Assembly: GCA_027886975.1 (NCBI GenBank)
Contig: JAPCJK010000011.1
Coordinates: 1 to 34,049, forward strand
Source of the DNA: Nitrososphaerota archaeon
GTDB taxonomy: Archaea > Thermoproteota > Nitrososphaeria > Nitrososphaerales > Gagatemarchaeaceae
DNA: 34,049 nucleotides
Direction: 5' to 3'
Both the position numbers and the translations under genes were made by a program. Below the pieces are notes generated by a model. It was not told where the DNA came from, did not search any database, and was given only the letters and a program-made list of their open reading frames with translations. This document shows, piece by piece, positions 241 through 32,687 of this stretch; the first letter of the stretch is position 1, and the number at the start of each line of letters is the position of its first letter.

Positions 241-1881
241 TTGGAAGGGTTAGCCTTGGGCAATAGGGCGAGCCTCGCATCGGTTTTGATAGTTGCGGTT
301 CTTGTGTTAGCCGCACTCCCATCAATGACGGGGCAGAACGTAGTGGGGGCAGGAGGCGGTCAGCGACGTTTCGGATTCGCCTTCATGAACCCGGGCGGAC
401 TGATGCAGAGCGGATACTCTGCTTCCACGTTCTTCAACGCAATGTTCCTAACTCCTCCCTACCCGTCCACGGCTGAAATCAATACCAACAACGGTATTGG
501 GGAAATCACTAGTCAGGCGACGATTGATTTTATCCTTTCATTGATGCAGCAGGCTTCTGCCTATCCAAACATCAAGCTGGTGTGGCATTTTTCATTCAAT
601 CTTTGCAGTCCCACCGAGATGAGCCAATTCCTTTCCGCTCTAGCAAAACTCGGCACCAGCCCTTACAAGTCTGCAATCGGTGCCGCCGGAGTCTACGATG
701 AGACTGCCAATGTGATTGCTGGCAATGAAGGAGTCAACTGTTCTGGCGCGGCCGAGGACGCCGCCTTCGGCCAGCTTAGCTCTGCCATAACCTCCAACGG
801 CTGGCAGTTCGTTTCAACATATTATGCGTTCCAGGGGACCAACTCGAACAACTGGAACTTCATTTACCAGACCAATTTCCCTGGCGGCGATTCGCAGGGC
901 GCCCTCAATGGCGGAGTGGGCAATCCCAGCATCGTGGGTCTGTTCGCGGGAGACGAAGACGATGCACCATTTCCCAGCCCCGGATGTTCGAACACCTTCA
1001 CAGGCGGCGCGAGTGCGACCTTTGGACTGCCCTACTGGACTACGCAATCCTTCGCGGAAGGATACACCGGTTCGTTTCCAAGTGCGGCGCCATGCCGCAA
1101 CGTGAACACCAACGCTGGCTTTCCACCTACGATTGGTCTGGTTCTTTCGACGGCTGCAACTCAACCGGCGGCCAACAGCCAGTACGTCGTGCTAGACTCG
1201 GGTCACATGGCCACTCAATTCTATCCTAGTTCGGGATGGCAGTATCAGTACTTCACTGGTGTGTCTGGAGTTTCGACCCATTGGCTATGGGATAACCCGG
1301 CGTTCAGAGCCGCCATGACCAATGAAATTGCGGCCCTTCCTGGAGCCTTCATCACAAGTACGGGCGCCACGGTCGTATCGACTTCGACGATTTCAACCGC
1401 TCCCACCACTTCAACCGCCACCACCTCCACCACCTCCTCCACACTCGGGACTGCGACCTCGACAACGACAACTGCGCAGGGAGGCACGGTGACCTTGACC
1501 CTCTCGACTACTGTAACAGTGGTCTCTCAGCCCGTGGTTTCGACGACCACCGCCACGGTAACCCGGACAACTACCTTGGCACATCAGGGTCCACCTTCCA
1601 CCATAACTTTTACGCAAAGAGAAACATCAACCGTTACGGTTACTACTTCCTACTCTACACAATTGGCGGGAACTGGGACTTCAACCCAAAATCAATCGCA
1701 GGATTCGCGTTCTCTGGGTCTAGGGACTAGTGTTGCTTATCCCTCGATGCCGATCTTCCCGCTCCAAGCCATACTTGTCGGCTTGGCAGCCGCAACCATG
1801 GGAGTAGTCTTACTTTCGAATGGGGCATTGACAAGGAGTATCAGGAAAAGAGTCTCGAGACTGGCGAAGTTTCATTCGTAA
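241..1881 (+). CDS. Secreted/membrane-anchored surface protein with Thr/Ser-rich stalk; paralogue of 19615-22479 and 22625-24073
   Basis: 546 aa ORF (TTG start); N-terminal hydrophobic signal (SVLIVAVLVLAALPSM); shared motifs RRFGFAFMNPG, YSAStFFNxMFLTPPYPST, LSLMQQASAYPNIK, FAEGYTG, SGVSxHxxWD; T/S stalk from about nt 1350; C-terminal TM plus basic tail. Confidence 0.85.
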   Translation: MEGLALGNRASLASVLIVAVLVLAALPSMTGQNVVGAGGGQRRFGFAFMNPGGLMQSGYSASTFFNAMFLTPPYPSTAEINTNNGIGEITSQATIDFILSLMQQASAYPNIKLVWHFSFNLCSPTEMSQFLSALAKLGTSPYKSAIGAAGVYDETANVIAGNEGVNCSGAAEDAAFGQLSSAITSNGWQFVSTYYAFQGTNSNNWNFIYQTNFPGGDSQGALNGGVGNPSIVGLFAGDEDDAPFPSPGCSNTFTGGASATFGLPYWTTQSFAEGYTGSFPSAAPCRNVNTNAGFPPTIGLVLSTAATQPAANSQYVVLDSGHMATQFYPSSGWQYQYFTGVSGVSTHWLWDNPAFRAAMTNEIAALPGAFITSTGATVVSTSTISTAPTTSTATTSTTSSTLGTATSTTTTAQGGTVTLTLSTTVTVVSQPVVSTTTATVTRTTTLAHQGPPSTITFTQRETSTVTVTTSYSTQLAGTGTSTQNQSQDSRSLGLGTSVAYPSMPIFPLQAILVGLAAATMGVVLLSNGALTRSIRKRVSRLAKFHS

Positions 1882-3152: not shown

Positions 3153-4151
3153 TCAGCGGCGGCCAAGGATTGACCTTAGCCCCCGAACCAAGGGGCTCAG
3201 GTAGATGTTACACCAGTACCTCGTAACAAACGCGCCTCCGAAGCGCTTCTTGGACCGAAAGTTAGCGTGATTGGGGTTTGAGGACCCGTTCCCCATGTTG
3301 ATGAACCTGAAGCCGTTCTCACGGGCCCAGTTCATTGTAACCCAGTCGCTAAATAACAGGATTGAATGTGAGGGCGGACGCTCATACCCAACTTGCATCA
3401 AGTGAACGGTGCCCCTATCACGGTCGAGCAGGAGCGCGCCAGCGGCTTTCGCGGCCCTTGTCCTTACAAAAAGAATCTTGAAAGAATCCTGAAACTCCTT
3501 GCTGACAGCCGTCAGGAATGGGAGTGGCTCGACTGCGTACCCCTTTCGAAGCATGGACTGACTATACAGAGCATGAAATTCTTCAATGCTCCTTTGATCC
3601 CCCGTCACAGAAACATTGAGATCGTTCTCTTCAAAGTATCTCAGGGTCTGGCGCTCGTGCTTCTTGAAAAATTTTGCTCGTATGGTTTCTGGAGGAGTTT
3701 CCTGAAGGTCAACGAGAAAGAAACCCGCGCTGTCGTGGATTCTGACCCCAGATTTGGAGAGGTAGTCAGCGATGTTCTTGTTCGTGGTCCTGATGTGGAT
3801 GCCAGCTAGACTGATGGACGTGGGAATTGAATGCAGAAGGCTCTCGACGAGTTCGCTTGCCCTAGATGATGCCTCAGGTGAGAACAGAGGCCCAGAAGGC
3901 TCGGAGTATTCTGGCCACGTCGTCAACATCCAAGTTGGCCCGCGGTAGCGTTCATAATAGAAGGGGCAACATCCCTGAACTGCTCCACGCGCGTCCGTGG
4001 CGAGCAAGTAGATAGGCCGGTGCCCTTGTGACTCGAGAACGTTCCTCCACTTCCAGCTGTCGTAGATGGTGCCTTGAGCTTTCGTCCTTGTGAAACCGTC
4101 CCATACAGCCGCGTCTTCCGTTTCGTTCCATTTCATGCGAGAGGACAACAC
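3153..4151 (-). CDS. FemAB-like / GNAT-fold acyltransferase (BioF2-like domain)
   Basis: 332 aa; FemAB-like pattern: FFKKHERQTLRYFEENDLNVSV..., AAKAAGALLLDRDRGTVHLMQVGYE, FINMGNGSSNPNHANFRSKKRFGG. Confidence 0.7.
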   Translation of the reverse strand: MLSSRMKWNETEDAAVWDGFTRTKAQGTIYDSWKWRNVLESQGHRPIYLLATDARGAVQGCCPFYYERYRGPTWMLTTWPEYSEPSGPLFSPEASSRASELVESLLHSIPTSISLAGIHIRTTNKNIADYLSKSGVRIHDSAGFFLVDLQETPPETIRAKFFKKHERQTLRYFEENDLNVSVTGDQRSIEEFHALYSQSMLRKGYAVEPLPFLTAVSKEFQDSFKILFVRTRAAKAAGALLLDRDRGTVHLMQVGYERPPSHSILLFSDWVTMNWARENGFRFINMGNGSSNPNHANFRSKKRFGGAFVTRYWCNIYLSPLVRGLRSILGRR

Positions 4152-4816
4152 TAGGTGCTCCTAAGTGATGTCCCTTCGTCCATGGACGGACGTCGAAACT
4201 CATGCAATCTCCTAATTCTCTCGGAGATCGGAGGGTGGGACAAGGCTCCGAAGGCTCTTTCCAGCTTTGACCCAGCGCTCATCCTGCCCAGGGCGGAGGC
4301 CAACGAAGTGGGGTCGACATACCTAGCAGCCAAGAGGTCTGCCTTGTACTCTGTATGTCTCCTATAGTAGACCATAGCGAGGAAGAAAATGAACCATATT
4401 CCCGTTGGAAGTTCTAGGCTCCCGTAGGGTGCCATCAACAATGCAGACAACATCCCGACTACAAGGAACGTGCTGGCGAAAAGAGAGTGTCGACTCTTCA
4501 AATGAGCGAGTTCGTGGGCCACTATTCCTGACCGTTCATCGGCAGAAAATCTATAGAAGATTTTCTCATTGAAGACTATCTGTCTCCGAAGGGAGTTTGA
4601 CAGCGCAATCCCAGGCGAGCTAGACATCCCCCATCTCTTGATACTCGCCAAGCGCACAGCCATAGTCTGAGCCAGCTTGTCGTATTCGGGGAACTGCACC
4701 CACTTCAATGAGCGAGGGTACTGCAGTAGGAGCCATAGACTCTTGGCAGCGAGCAAGATTGTGACAGAGAAGGGGATGGAGAGTGAAATCGCATAGGTCA
4801 ACAGCCCCAGAATCAT
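4151..4816 (-). CDS. M48-family (HtpX-like) membrane zinc metalloprotease
   Basis: 221 aa; HExxH motif in IVAHELAHLKSRHSL, downstream E in HTEYKADLLAARYVD, flanking TM segments, C-terminal SHPPISERIRRL typical of M48. Confidence 0.85.
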   Translation of the reverse strand: MILGLLTYAISLSIPFSVTILLAAKSLWLLLQYPRSLKWVQFPEYDKLAQTMAVRLASIKRWGMSSSPGIALSNSLRRQIVFNEKIFYRFSADERSGIVAHELAHLKSRHSLFASTFLVVGMLSALLMAPYGSLELPTGIWFIFFLAMVYYRRHTEYKADLLAARYVDPTSLASALGRMSAGSKLERAFGALSHPPISERIRRLHEFRRPSMDEGTSLRST

Positions 4817-4853: not shown

Positions 4854-4878
4854 TCCCCGGGATATTGATGCCCGGGGA
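4854..4878. other. Inverted repeat / hairpin (8-bp stem, 9-nt loop) about 38 nt upstream of the M48 protease start
   Basis: tccccggg-atattgatg-cccgggga. Confidence 0.5.
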
Positions 4879-4901
4879 AATCCGCGCAAACAAATCGCGC
4901 T

Positions 4902-5101: not shown

Positions 5102-5230
5102 TTACGCGAATACGCAATCTTCGCCGATTTTGACGCAGGTTGCTGTTTCCGTCTGCCAGTGCTCTCCAAGTGGTAAGACGTTCCAGGCGAGGACCACTGC
5201 AGATCGGATTTTCCGAACGAGGTTCAACAT
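5102..5230 (-). CDS. Small protein, tandem family copy 1 (42 aa), unknown function
   Basis: MLNLVRKIRSAVVLAWNVLPLGEHWQTETATCVKIGEDCVFA*; similar to copy 2 with synonymous codon differences and in-frame indels. Not in ORF track. Confidence 0.65.
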   Translation of the reverse strand: MLNLVRKIRSAVVLAWNVLPLGEHWQTETATCVKIGEDCVFA

Positions 5231-5243
5231 GGTTCTTTGAGGC

Positions 5244-5269
5244 CGGTTTCTACTTAAGCCTTGTTCAGG
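5244..5269 (-). promoter_or_regulatory. Conserved promoter core of copy 1 (TATA-like CTTAAGTA)
   Basis: cggtttctacttaagccttgttcagg is identical (26/26) to 5550-5575; TATA-like element centred about 24.5 nt upstream of the ATG. Confidence 0.6.
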
Positions 5270-5381
5270 TGAGATTCACGATTCTGATTTTCGCATCAAT
5301 GTTCAAGTGCGCAGATGATATAGATTTCACCCTTCTTTTACTCCTCATTTCACTCTTCAAGAACGTATGATGCTAATGACC

Positions 5382-5388
5382 AAAAAAA
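5382..5388 (-). terminator. T7 tract (minus strand) downstream of small-protein copy 2
   Basis: Reverse complement gccgatttttttggtc, about 19 nt after the copy 2 stop codon. Confidence 0.4.
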
Positions 5389-5406
5389 TCGGCAAGTGCC
5401 TTGGTA

Positions 5407-5532
5407 CTAACCCCAGACGGGTAGGCACTCTTCGCCGATTTTGACGCATTGGCCGTCCGTCCACTGGTCCCCTGTTGGGATGACGTTCCAAGCCATTACA
5501 AATGCGGACCGGAACTTTCGGATGATGTCCAT
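5407..5532 (-). CDS. Small protein, tandem family copy 2 (41 aa), unknown function
   Basis: MDIIRKFRSAFVMAWNVIPTGDQWTDGQCVKIGEECLPVWG*; shares RKxRSAxVxAWNVxP and CVKIGE[DE]C with copy 1. Not in ORF track. Confidence 0.65.
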   Translation of the reverse strand: MDIIRKFRSAFVMAWNVIPTGDQWTDGQCVKIGEECLPVWG

Positions 5533-5549
5533 CTTAATTAATTCAGGAG

Positions 5550-5575
5550 CGGTTTCTACTTAAGCCTTGTTCAGG
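5550..5575 (-). promoter_or_regulatory. Conserved promoter core of copy 2 (TATA-like CTTAAGTA)
   Basis: Identical 26-mer to 5244-5269; TATA-like element centred about 29.5 nt upstream of the ATG at 5532. Confidence 0.6.
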
Positions 5576-5700
5576 CAGGATTCAGAATCATGAATTTGAC
5601 ACCAATGTTCAACTGAGCAGATGTTATTGATTTCACGCCACCATTCCTCAACAGCACATCTAGCAACACGACATGGCGCTTGGGAAGAAAGACGGGAAGT

Positions 5701-5835
5701 CTATTGTGATGAGGTCAGAGGCACACGAGTTCTTCGCCGATCACGGTGCACCCCGGTGGTACTTGATGGCTGCTGGGGAGGCAGGGCGTTCCAAGCCAGG
5801 CCAAATGCAGACCTTACCTTCCTGATGAAATCCAT
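5701..5835 (-). pseudogene. Small protein, tandem family copy 3, apparently frameshifted
   Basis: MDFIRKVRSAFGLAWNALPPQQPSS...; one +1 shift near cctcccc restores the family ending ...GCTVIGEELVCL* (stop at 5715-5717). TATA-like GTTAAGTA at 5859-5866. Confidence 0.5.
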
Positions 5836-5945
5836 CGCGATAATATTGAACAAATTTCTACTTAACAATCTGAGCCTCACATTCATTCGTGTGAATCCCG
5901 GCTCCATGAGTTTTATGACCACGTCGACCAGGTGCAATCTCTCTC

Positions 5946-7265
5946 ATGAGGCTTGAAAGGCAGCGAATTGGCCACGCAGTCAGGACGAACCAGTGGCTTG
6001 CACCCTCCGAACTCAGGGCTCTCCAGGTCCAGAAGCTCAAAGCCCTTCTTTCGCATGCTTACGCCTCAGTCCCTTACCACCGGAGACGTCTCGACGAACG
6101 AGGAATTCGTCCAGATTCCATTAGGTCATTGGCAGATCTTGACAAGGTTCCAGTAATGTCGAAACAGGATCTCAGGGAGAACCCGCTTGAGGACCTGGTG
6201 CCGAAGGGGTTGAAAATCGAGACTTGCAGACGAGCATATACCTCTGGGACAACGGGTACCCCGGTTTTCGTACTTGTTGACCGGGACGCCTTCGCTTGGC
6301 GCCGAGCCTATCTTGAAAGAGTTGCCGATGCCCTGGGCCTTGACCCATGGGAACACAGAGCTACTCTGCGCTTTACCTTTCCGAAGTTCGACCCCCGGGG
6401 CGACCCAGCCAATTTGAAGCTGAAGAAGTGGCTGTCGAGGAGAAGAAATCGGTATTCGCGTGAGTTCTTCTTCACATACGACTGCTTAGAAATCCTCTAT
6501 GATTTGTTGAAGTTCAAGCCCAAGGTGATTCAAGGGAATCCTGCGTACCTGATGAATCTGACCCACGCTCTCAAGGATTCTATGCGGCCCTCACTCAAAA
6601 TGTTGGGTTCAAGCGGGGACACACTGGACCTGGCGACACGCCGAGAGCTGGAGTCATTCTTCGGATGCCCCCTCTATGAAGCATACGGTTCACAGGACCT
6701 TGGTCCGATGGCGTGGCAGTGTCGGAACCGAGAGGGGTTGCACATGAACGTCGATGGATACGTATTCGAGATTGTCGGCAAGGATGGAGGTCTGGCCTCT
6801 GGAGAGTCAGGACGCCTGCTGGTCACATGCCTCGACAACTATGCTATGCCTGTCATAAGATACGAGGTGGGGGACGAAGTGACCCTAGACCCCGAACCAT
6901 GCTCATGCGGGAGGGGCCTCCCACTGATGAAGCGCGTGGATGGGAGGCAGTCAGATTTCCTTGATTTACCCGGAGGAAAGAGGATATCGCCCCAGGCGTT
7001 TGTTTCTTGCATCAATCAGGTAGCGGGCCTTCCTAGATTCCAGCTTGTCGTGAAGACTCCCGCAGACCTAGAACTCCGGCTTTATGCGCAGAATGTCTCA
7101 TCCCTACTCGTGCAGGAATCCCTCAGGAGGTGCCACGAACTTTTTGGAAGGGTCGTCAGTCTGAATGTTGTCCTTGTCAAGGAAGAGCCGAGGGCCAAAC
7201 TCAGAAGCGTGATCCCAAACCCAGACGCTCAAACGTTGGGAATAACAACCTCCCCCGTGACCTAG
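5946..7265 (+). CDS. Phenylacetate-CoA ligase / CapK-like adenylate-forming enzyme
   Basis: 439 aa; AMP-binding signature RAYTSGTTGTPVFVLVD, YEAYGSQDLGPMAWQC, GRLLVTCLDNYAMPVIRYEVGD as in PaaK/CapK proteins. Confidence 0.85.
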   Translation: MRLERQRIGHAVRTNQWLAPSELRALQVQKLKALLSHAYASVPYHRRRLDERGIRPDSIRSLADLDKVPVMSKQDLRENPLEDLVPKGLKIETCRRAYTSGTTGTPVFVLVDRDAFAWRRAYLERVADALGLDPWEHRATLRFTFPKFDPRGDPANLKLKKWLSRRRNRYSREFFFTYDCLEILYDLLKFKPKVIQGNPAYLMNLTHALKDSMRPSLKMLGSSGDTLDLATRRELESFFGCPLYEAYGSQDLGPMAWQCRNREGLHMNVDGYVFEIVGKDGGLASGESGRLLVTCLDNYAMPVIRYEVGDEVTLDPEPCSCGRGLPLMKRVDGRQSDFLDLPGGKRISPQAFVSCINQVAGLPRFQLVVKTPADLELRLYAQNVSSLLVQESLRRCHELFGRVVSLNVVLVKEEPRAKLRSVIPNPDAQTLGITTSPVT

Positions 7266-13678: not shown

Positions 13679-14869
13679 CTAGGAAAGGACCTTCACCACC
13701 GCCCGTTCCAGGTCCGAAGGGCTGTAGCTAAGAGGTGCGTCGATCCCGAAAATCTTGGCGTTGCGCACCCCCGACTTTAGCACTTCGATTATTCTTGTGT
13801 GGTGCAGTGCTTCTTCGGCGATGAAATCGTTTCCCAAAGAGGCCGAGGAGCAATAGACGTATTGGCTGTGCCGCCACGGCGCCGCGGCGAACTCCCAGAA
13901 CAGCTCGGCGCCAAGCACTCTCACCAAGTCGTTACTGTCAACTTCTTTCACTGAGAAATCATTCCCGACCCCCCTTCTGATGAGGACGACTGTGCGGAGG
14001 GGGCAAGCATCCCCAATCTTGGCTCCTTCGAATATTTCGCCCAACGTCCGGCGTGGCTGGAGGTCGAGGGGCTCGTTTGGGGGGAGCTTCCGAGCAAGCT
14101 CGGGGAATGCCTCAAGATGCTGTGATTGTAACTTGACGGGTTTGGGGTACGAGAGAAGACCTCCGTTTTTCGCTAAGATGGCGAGGTCGTCCCCATAGTA
14201 GAGGAACCCCCTCTTGACCAGCTGAAGGGCCAAGGTCGTCTTCCCCACCCTGGCAGAGCCTACCACCAGCAGACCGGACCCCTCGGAAGAGAGCGCCGAG
14301 GCATGAACCAAAGAACAGCCCTTGAAGGGGAGTCGATAGTACAAGAAAGGCTCCAGGATTGCCAACAATATTCTCTCTGCCTGCTGTTCCAAACGCTCCT
14401 GTTCGAACAGGGGGCTGCCGGTGAGGGCTAGGAGACTTCTCCTCCAGCCGTGATTGGCGAGCTCTCTGAGGAGGCGCCTGAAACGCTTTTCCGCTGGCGG
14501 AAAGGTTGGCACGCAGACTTCCACCGGTTGTGTTCCTTCCTTTACCTCCCCTGTGATGGCATACTCAACCTCGTCCTTCTTTGGTTGAACACCAATACTC
14601 CGTCTGAAAACAGAGGTCTGTCTCATCTTGGCGTCGTATAGCAGCCTGTCACCAACGGTTGCTCCAGTTGGCTGCCAGTCATCTGATGGATAGGAGCCAA
14701 TCTTCAGCGTGATATCTGCATCTTCTCCATCTGCCCTGAACGGATTGAGCGTCCTGTCCAAGACATCGCCTAGTTTGGACCTAGGACTTTGGATGCCAAC
14801 GCTCAACAAGTCATGTATGTCGTAGTGTGTCAAGTCACCAACCTCGGGCGCTCCATGTGCGTTTTCCAT
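13679..14869 (-). CDS. HPr kinase-like (HprK-related) P-loop protein
   Basis: 396 aa; Walker A SGLLVVGSARVGKTTLALQLVKRGFLYYGDDLAIL, as in HprK-like proteins of polysaccharide and peptide-modification loci. Confidence 0.65.
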   Translation of the reverse strand: MENAHGAPEVGDLTHYDIHDLLSVGIQSPRSKLGDVLDRTLNPFRADGEDADITLKIGSYPSDDWQPTGATVGDRLLYDAKMRQTSVFRRSIGVQPKKDEVEYAITGEVKEGTQPVEVCVPTFPPAEKRFRRLLRELANHGWRRSLLALTGSPLFEQERLEQQAERILLAILEPFLYYRLPFKGCSLVHASALSSEGSGLLVVGSARVGKTTLALQLVKRGFLYYGDDLAILAKNGGLLSYPKPVKLQSQHLEAFPELARKLPPNEPLDLQPRRTLGEIFEGAKIGDACPLRTVVLIRRGVGNDFSVKEVDSNDLVRVLGAELFWEFAAAPWRHSQYVYCSSASLGNDFIAEEALHHTRIIEVLKSGVRNAKIFGIDAPLSYSPSDLERAVVKVLS

Positions 14870-30521: not shown

Positions 30522-32687
30522 TTATTCGTCAGCTTTCCGTTCTTCGGCTGGATGACCTCTCGCCAGGGCCTCCACTTCAAAGGTTATCCGGGTGGATTCG
30601 AGTGCGTCGGCGAAGGTGACGATGGAAGAGGGGCGGCCTCTGATCATCTTCTCTATCTCCTGGAGCTCAGAGGCGTGCCCTTTGTCGGGAGAGTTCTTCG
30701 AGAATCTACGCGTCCCGGATGGCTCTATGACTTCGAGAGAAGCAAAGTCATCGAGCACGAAGGCGGTCCCCTGCCCGAAGACCTCCAGCCTCTCTCTTTC
30801 CATACGTCTGTTCCCCAAGGCGGAATATGTTAGAGACGCGACAGACCCCTCGGGGTATTTCAGTGCGACAACGAGGTTGTCCCTGGTCACCGTAGTTGAG
30901 TCTGTGATACCTGCAGTGGTGACCTTGATTTCCGGTCTCCCAGAGCCTAACAGGAAGTCGAAGAGATCGATGAAGTGGCAACACTCCGCGACAATCCTTC
31001 CCCCTCCTATCTCTGGGTCCTGGACCCAGCGCGACTTTGAAATGTAGTCAGCGTTTACCCGGTAACTAAGGAGGAAGGGCCCGTCGAGTTTCACCATCTC
31101 TTCCTTGAGTTTTTTGACAAGGGGCGCGTACCTGCGGTTGAAGCCAACGATTATGGTTGCCCCAGTTTCACGCTGGACGTCCGCGACCTCACGGAGCTGT
31201 TCCTCATTGATGCAGAGGGGTTTCTCTACGAAGACTGTCTTCCCCGCCTTTGCGGCCAGTGTGACCATCTCCGAATGGAGGTTGTTCGGGGTGGTAATCA
31301 CCACGAGGTCCACATCCTTGTCCTCAAGGACCTCCGAATAGTCGGTCCCGTATCTCTCGAACCTGTATCTTTCTCCAAGGCGCTTCGCGTTCAGCGGGCT
31401 GGAAGAAACAATCCAGCGAAGGTTGAACGAGGAGTCGCGCCGCAGGGCAGGGATAAGGACCTCCTTGGCGTAGTTCCCTGGTCCGACAAGGGCGACCTGT
31501 ATCCTCCCCTCGGCCTTTTGCTTGGCGCGCCCCAGCGAACCAAGTTCCTTGGCCTGACTGACGGACTGGTCGTATTTCAGGAGGACGGCCACCTTCGACT
31601 CGTTCACCAGGGAGGAGTAGGCTGCTCCTGCATCATCGACTAGATAGACTCCTGCGAGCAACTTTCTCGTATCTATCTTTTTCTCCGAGATCAGGGCCAG
31701 GAATCCCTCAAGGTTGCGCGCGAGTGTCCACCTTACGTAGCCAACGGGGTAGTCCTGCCCCTTCAACTCGTAGGCAGGGTCGAACCTCCCAGGCCCAAGG
31801 GAGCGGGACATCACGGCTTCCAGCTCCTTCTGGAAGTAGTCCTTCCGTTCGAAGTCCATACCCACTCTCCCGACAATGGTGATTTTCGCTCTGTCCCTGG
31901 CCAACCTGGACGCAAGGTTCACAGGCTCGCTGCTCGCGGTTGCCGCACAGACTATCACGCTGTCCAGGCCCTTCCCACCGGAAAAGTGAAGGACGTGGTC
32001 TGCGAGTCGGGGATCCTCTGATGAGAGAGTCAGGTCAGCCCCCACTGCCTTTGCGAGCTCGAGTCTGTCTTCCCTCAGGTCGATTGCCACCACCCTGCAG
32101 CCCGCAGCCTTTGCTATCTGGACGGTAAGGTTCCCCACGAGCCCAGCGCCTATGACTCCCACGGTCTCCCCGATCTGAGATCCGCTTCGACGGAAACCGT
32201 GAAGTGCGATGGCGCCGACGGTGGCAAAGGCCGCCTCCTCGAGGTCCACCCCGGCGGGGACCTTGGCAAGGAGGTTCCGAGGGACTGCTATGAACTCGGC
32301 GTGGCATGCCTTTCCCTCCCCGGCGCAGGCGACGCTCTCTCCCACTACAATGTCTGTCACGTTTCTTCCTACCTTCACTACCTGTCCGGAGACGCTGTAC
32401 CCCAACGCAACCTGAGGATTTCGCACGAACTTCACGTAGTCGATTACACCGCTCGTCCCCTCCGTCTTCCACACGTTCGCCGTAAGGTTCAGTGCCTTCC
32501 TCAACTTCGAGCGGTCACCCACGACTTCGCGCGTGGTCAGCGGTTCGGTGGCCTCGATGGTCCAGGACTCTGTCCCTGTGCTTATGAGCGAGAAGGCCGA
32601 CCGCACCAGAATTTCGTCGGGTCCACACGTTGGAGCTGGGACTACGAGAACCTTGACCTTTCCGGCGCTGGCGACTACCTGCTTCAA
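30522..32687 (-). CDS. Two-domain oxidoreductase: zinc-type alcohol dehydrogenase (MDR) fused to Gfo/Idh/MocA dehydrogenase
   Basis: 721 aa; MDR half ALGYSVSGQVVKVGRNVTDIVVGESVACAGEGKACHAEF, VGVIGAGLVGNLTVQIAKAAG; Gfo/Idh half VALVGPGNYAKEVLIPAL, VVITTPNNLHSEMVTLAAKAGKTVFVEKPLC. Confidence 0.9.
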   Translation of the reverse strand: MKQVVASAGKVKVLVVPAPTCGPDEILVRSAFSLISTGTESWTIEATEPLTTREVVGDRSKLRKALNLTANVWKTEGTSGVIDYVKFVRNPQVALGYSVSGQVVKVGRNVTDIVVGESVACAGEGKACHAEFIAVPRNLLAKVPAGVDLEEAAFATVGAIALHGFRRSGSQIGETVGVIGAGLVGNLTVQIAKAAGCRVVAIDLREDRLELAKAVGADLTLSSEDPRLADHVLHFSGGKGLDSVIVCAATASSEPVNLASRLARDRAKITIVGRVGMDFERKDYFQKELEAVMSRSLGPGRFDPAYELKGQDYPVGYVRWTLARNLEGFLALISEKKIDTRKLLAGVYLVDDAGAAYSSLVNESKVAVLLKYDQSVSQAKELGSLGRAKQKAEGRIQVALVGPGNYAKEVLIPALRRDSSFNLRWIVSSSPLNAKRLGERYRFERYGTDYSEVLEDKDVDLVVITTPNNLHSEMVTLAAKAGKTVFVEKPLCINEEQLREVADVQRETGATIIVGFNRRYAPLVKKLKEEMVKLDGPFLLSYRVNADYISKSRWVQDPEIGGGRIVAECCHFIDLFDFLLGSGRPEIKVTTAGITDSTTVTRDNLVVALKYPEGSVASLTYSALGNRRMERERLEVFGQGTAFVLDDFASLEVIEPSGTRRFSKNSPDKGHASELQEIEKMIRGRPSSIVTFADALESTRITFEVEALARGHPAEERKADE

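Follow-up and report, generated by a model that had tools for sequence, protein, structure and literature searches.

Three tandem copies of a small-protein gene, each behind its own predicted promoter, in an archaeal genome

Ribosome profiling in Methanosarcina mazei has revealed unannotated sORFs of 70 amino acids or less that are restricted in distribution and at least one of which is leaderless (PMC11456600). The array described here shares these properties; it differs from the M. mazei sORFs in being made of tandem paralogues, in having a promoter for each copy and in the evidence for it being comparative. In layout it also resembles the Ldr loci of E. coli, where 35-aa toxins are accompanied by cis antisense RNA (PMC8309996): both consist of repeats of a few hundred bp arranged in tandem, each repeat being an independent gene for a peptide of 35-42 aa. 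What characterises membrane type I toxins is, however, a hydrophobic transmembrane stretch (PMC8309996), whereas the array peptide has neither a transmembrane helix nor a profile match, belongs to an archaeal host and is known from sequence alone. Small cysteine-containing archaeal proteins are also represented by the zinc-finger micro-proteins of Haloferax, such as HVO_0758 (PMC10716476), which have two C(P)XCG motifs in place of the single C-x6-C of the array peptide. Membership of this micro-protein class was considered and rejected, since it needs the four cysteines of both motifs and the array peptide has two. RiPP gene clusters, finally, are common across archaea (PMC12144867), and the precursors of lasso peptides and other RiPPs resemble the array peptide in being short, in their helical first half and in a Gly/Ala..Glu/Asp tail; by contrast with those systems, the array genome has no lasso protease and no RiPP enzyme lies beside the array. 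That tail and an HPr-kinase-like gene at 13679-14869 had suggested a lasso peptide, which was rejected because PF13471 is absent.

The array lies on the minus strand of a 34,049-nucleotide stretch of DNA (hereafter the window), which is contig 13 of a genome of 2.05 Mb in 151 contigs (94.8% complete). Copy 1 (5102-5230, ATG to TAA) is an intact open frame for a 42-aa protein, MLNLVRKIRSAVVLAWNVLPLGEHWQTETATCVKIGEDCVFA, and copy 2 (5407-5532, ATG to TAG) an intact open frame for a 41-aa protein, MDIIRKFRSAFVMAWNVIPTGDQWTDGQCVKIGEECLPVWG. Copy 3 (5715-5835) begins at an ATG at 5835 as MDFIRKVRSAFGLAWNALP and then leaves the frame; its C-terminal half continues in another frame, ends in GCTVIGEELVCL and stops at 5715. 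A profile finds the two halves separately, at E values of 4e-11 and 1e-8 that are inflated by the inclusion of copy 3 in that profile, and copy 2 as a single-sequence query also picks up the N-terminal half (E 0.0015). Copy 3 retains the promoter box, the N-terminal half, the IGEE-containing C-terminal half in its other frame and a stop at the expected place. The two cysteines of each intact copy are retained in both as C-x6-C, compared with C-x8-C in copy 3 when read across the frameshift. Copy 3 is either a pseudogene or a base-call or assembly error, and because it is broken the family may be decaying. The direct repeats are spaced by 305 and 303 bp, and of the 2,597 small ORFs with an ATG start in 552 kb of the genome, window included, the three copies form the sole neighbouring same-strand set with similarity at E < 1e-3. 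Reading the minus strand anew thereby reproduced the coordinates, translations and third-copy frameshift given in a preliminary description of this DNA, together with its tandem duplication and the C-x6-C of copies 1 and 2.

That description had also claimed that the copies are coding and had proposed dN/dS as a check. Over the 39 aligned codons of copies 1 and 2, codon positions 1, 2 and 3 carry 13, 7 and 20 differences, respectively. The Nei-Gojobori (NG86) estimates for this comparison of paralogues within one genome are dN 0.37 and dS 0.86, giving a dN/dS of 0.43 overall that is lower in the N-terminal half (in the N-terminal 20 codons dN is 0.20-0.31 and dS is either saturated or about 1.4-1.5). 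The BLOSUM score between the two proteins is 131, against 64-70 ± 14 under independent nulls in which the same substitutions were placed at random; none of 20,000 trials reached 131 (P < 1/20,000). In a six-frame comparison the annotated frame alone was extreme (z 4.4), the runner-up being an antisense frame (z 1.9), and the N-terminal 20 codons gave the same outcome for all three pairs of copies (P 0.00015 to 0.005). The earlier coding claim is upheld by these results, and copies 1 and 2 look, from their sequences, truly protein-coding and under purifying selection at the protein level. The DNA encoding CVKIGE (5119-5137 and 5433-5451) is identical between the two copies, silent sites included, unlike the rest of the frame where silent sites are near saturation; gene conversion and constraint at the nucleotide level are both possible.

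Upstream of the frames, all three copies have TTAAGTAGAAA in common, 21-32 nt before the ATG, with the box starting 28-32 nt ahead of that codon. The TATA-like box of copy 1, CTTAAGTA (5251-5258, minus strand), stands 21-28 nt before its ATG within a 26-bp block identical in copy 2; the same box, CTTAAGTA, occupies 5557-5564 of the minus strand in copy 2 (25-32 nt before the ATG), and copy 3 has TTAAGTA at 5859-5865, also on the minus strand (24-30 nt before the ATG). Copies 1 and 2 further have CCTGAACAAGGCTTAAGTAGAAACCG in common upstream of the ATG. TTAAGTA is rare, with 15 sites on both strands of the same 552 kb, three of them in the array, compared with 50 for the reversed word. Among other genes with free upstream DNA, 12 of the 19 occurrences of TTAA within 80 bp fall at -40 to -26, and one other gene of the genome has a near-identical AGGCTTAAGTATAAAC. 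The distance of the array promoters from the start codon is the usual one, and each copy has its own putative archaeal promoter, laid out as in this genome's other genes. An archaeal TATA box normally lies about 25 bp before the transcription start; with a box 21-32 nt before the ATG, the mRNAs should therefore start at or just before the ATG, which implies that they would be near-leaderless. Because its core, CTTAAG, is a palindrome, the box by itself is not enough to fix the direction of transcription.

A second, distal element of 20 bp, GTGAAATCNATANCATCTGC, is found 81-100 nt before the ATG of copy 1 (GTGAAATCTATATCATCTGC, 5311-5330, minus strand) and 85-104 nt before that of copy 2 (GTGAAATCAATAACATCTGC, 5617-5636, minus strand), the two being identical at 18 of 20 positions; at up to 3 mismatches it has no further match genome-wide. 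Homology between copies 1 and 2 runs from about -100 up to the stop codon, falling to chance level directly after the stop and also upstream of the distal element. The duplicated and retained unit is therefore element, promoter and frame.

No homologues were recovered from the remainder of the genome and from 100 relatives, from all 46 genomes of the family, from 401 genomes of the order and 401 of the class (two overlapping draws), and from GTDB representative contigs, viral contigs, phages and plasmids. The best foreign matches (E 0.01-0.5), seven of which were examined in six-frame translation, were judged to be chance, being short, interrupted by stops or within larger frames. Pfam, NCBIfam, PHROGs and the PDB gave no significant match, the best PHROG (0.022) and PDB (0.54) values being at chance level. 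The preliminary description, made without database searches, had recognised no known family, and this held in every family library and collection tried. It had also named a conserved RNA structure on the opposite strand as an alternative source of the repeats, a point examined here in part, through Rfam, which had no match on either strand of the array. As far as these collections were searched, the family appears to be lineage-restricted. It is a genuine family of small-protein genes, not listed before and with neat promoters, and it is ordinary in kind, lineage-restricted small proteins being already known.

Downstream of the array, on the same strand and 285 bp beyond copy 1, lies a gene for a short M48-family membrane metallopeptidase (4151-4816, minus strand; PF01435, E 4e-14), overlapped by one base by a gene for a FemAB/GNAT-like transferase (3153-4151, minus strand; PF13480, E 7e-8; TIGR03019, E 2e-16, below cut-off). 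The divergent neighbour encodes a CapK/PaaK-like adenylate-forming enzyme (5946-7265, plus strand; PF00501, NF045666). In the genomes of the family, relatives of the M48 peptidase are weak (best E 2e-9, 31% identity), and the FemAB-like protein matched nothing else at E ≤ 1e-15 across 301 genomes of the class, 300 of them other genomes; there is therefore no syntenic locus in relatives for comparison. The island around the array holds glycosyltransferase, UDP-sugar dehydrogenase and epimerase genes as well as the CapK-like and FemAB-like ones. The array is placed by these neighbours within a predicted accessory exopolysaccharide island, its DNA being assigned as accessory because no homologues were found and the FemAB-like neighbour is missing from the other genomes of the class. 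The GC content of the window (54.8%) is near that of the sampled genome (56.1%).

Several other features of this DNA are recorded here. The HPr-kinase-like P-loop protein of the polysaccharide island (13679-14869, minus strand) matches PF07475 (E 1e-6) and HprK-related kinase B (E 6e-8), neither hit reaching the cut-off. A perfect inverted repeat, CCCCGGG-ATATTGATG-CCCGGGG, lies at 4858-4880, some 40-65 bp ahead of the M48 peptidase start. A putative secreted or surface protein (241-1881, plus strand) with no Pfam match carries a long mucin-like region rich in Thr/Ser and, at its C terminus, a hydrophobic segment, and a 721-aa fusion (30522-32687, minus strand) joins a zinc alcohol-dehydrogenase-like domain to a GFO/IDH/MocA oxidoreductase (PF00107, PF01408).

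An initiation-factor-like GTPase of the genome is closest to those of the soil Thaumarchaeota MAGs TA_13 (72%) and archaeon isolate 13_2 (70%), with an 80% match to TA_14 over a shorter stretch and other Nitrososphaeria next. The host, known from a MAG, thus belongs to a non-model Nitrososphaeria lineage that is probably from soil, and we infer that this lineage lies near group 1.1c.

Our main reading, to which we assign a probability of about 0.8, is that the array consists of three tandem duplicates within the accessory island, each an independent transcription unit carrying a leaderless, lineage-restricted small-protein gene; this figure spans coding selection, promoter layout, duplication and restricted distribution and excludes the inferred mechanism. 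In each unit, about 100 bp of upstream sequence would be followed by an archaeal promoter and then by a frame of 41-42 codons on an essentially leaderless mRNA.

An AlphaFold prediction from two sequences gives a helix at residues 3-17 and hairpin strands at 30-32 and 35-37, with a mean pLDDT of 59; at this low confidence the fold is a sketch, a cationic amphipathic helix followed by a C-x6-C hairpin. The amphipathicity of the helix (muH 0.54-0.59) is above that of shuffles (P 0.02-0.04), its mean hydrophobicity is 0.10-0.17 and it has only about 17 residues ahead of a Pro; as predicted, it is too weakly hydrophobic to span a membrane. The best-fitting reading of this layout, which we favour tentatively, is that the peptide is a membrane-peripheral accessory or regulator of the surface-polysaccharide island. 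Its basic amphipathic N-terminal helix (RKxRSAxxxAWN) would lie against the membrane on its inner side, while a partner would be touched by the C-terminal C-x6-C hairpin, as a disulfide or a metal-bound turn. The peptide could then assist or regulate, in a dosage-tunable manner, a membrane-bound step of the island, for example the assembly of polysaccharide or the M48 peptidase next door, the putative tie to the peptidase and polysaccharide genes being one of adjacency.

It is more doubtful that the peptide is an intracellular regulator binding DNA, RNA or protein, in which the basic helix would serve recognition and the cysteines would bind metal or sense redox state. The RKxR basic patch and the retention of the cysteines in both intact copies are consistent with such a role. 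However, the cysteines number only two, neither Pfam nor NCBIfam returned a DNA-binding or zinc-finger family, and the hydrophobic face of the helix fits membrane or protein contact better.

We consider it unlikely that the copies encode precursors of a secreted, possibly modified peptide (a RiPP, archaeocin or pheromone), with the helix as leader, the cysteine tail as core and the M48 and FemAB/GNAT enzymes as processing machinery. Their small size, the several paralogues, the helix-plus-cysteine-tail layout and the adjoining membrane peptidase and transferases all point towards precursors. Against this, CVKIGE in the tail is conserved more strongly between copies 1 and 2 than any other stretch, whereas cores are usually variable; PF13471, the B2 transglutaminase-like leader protease, gave no hit at E ≤ 0.01 in this genome, which is 94.8% complete; the neighbours scanned included no enzyme of a known RiPP family; and the only PqqD domain of the genome is elsewhere, on contig C99. 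There (L198, 1375-3180) the PqqD-like domain forms a fusion with an M50-like membrane protein that is at least 600 aa long. A pheromone- or bacteriocin-like locus in particular, in which divergent tandem precursors, each with a leader that binds membranes and a loop closed by a disulfide, would be matured by the M48 peptidase, is very unlikely, and we know of no such system described in Nitrososphaeria.

Equally improbable is that the array is the archaeal counterpart of type I toxin-antitoxin repeats, with tandem membrane-active toxins that would be silenced by antisense RNA. Tandem repeats with their own promoters and a small basic-helix peptide do resemble Ldr loci, but the weakly hydrophobic helix leaves the peptide without a hydrophobic transmembrane stretch and the other strand is negative in Rfam. 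That the repeats are regulatory DNA or a small RNA with accidental reading frames is the least credible of these readings, since, although conservation between copies 1 and 2 is higher in the 100 bp upstream (79%) than in the first part of the frame (68%), this reading would predict neither a frame-specific protein signal nor homology ending at the stop codon, and Rfam offers no match.

The peptide itself matters only if a function as a signal, a toxin or a regulator of surface polysaccharide proves true. The duplication allows short, near-leaderless genes without homologues to be recognised from a single genome, and for an uncultured Thaumarchaeote lineage of soil the array supplies three compact promoters, with their box and distal element.
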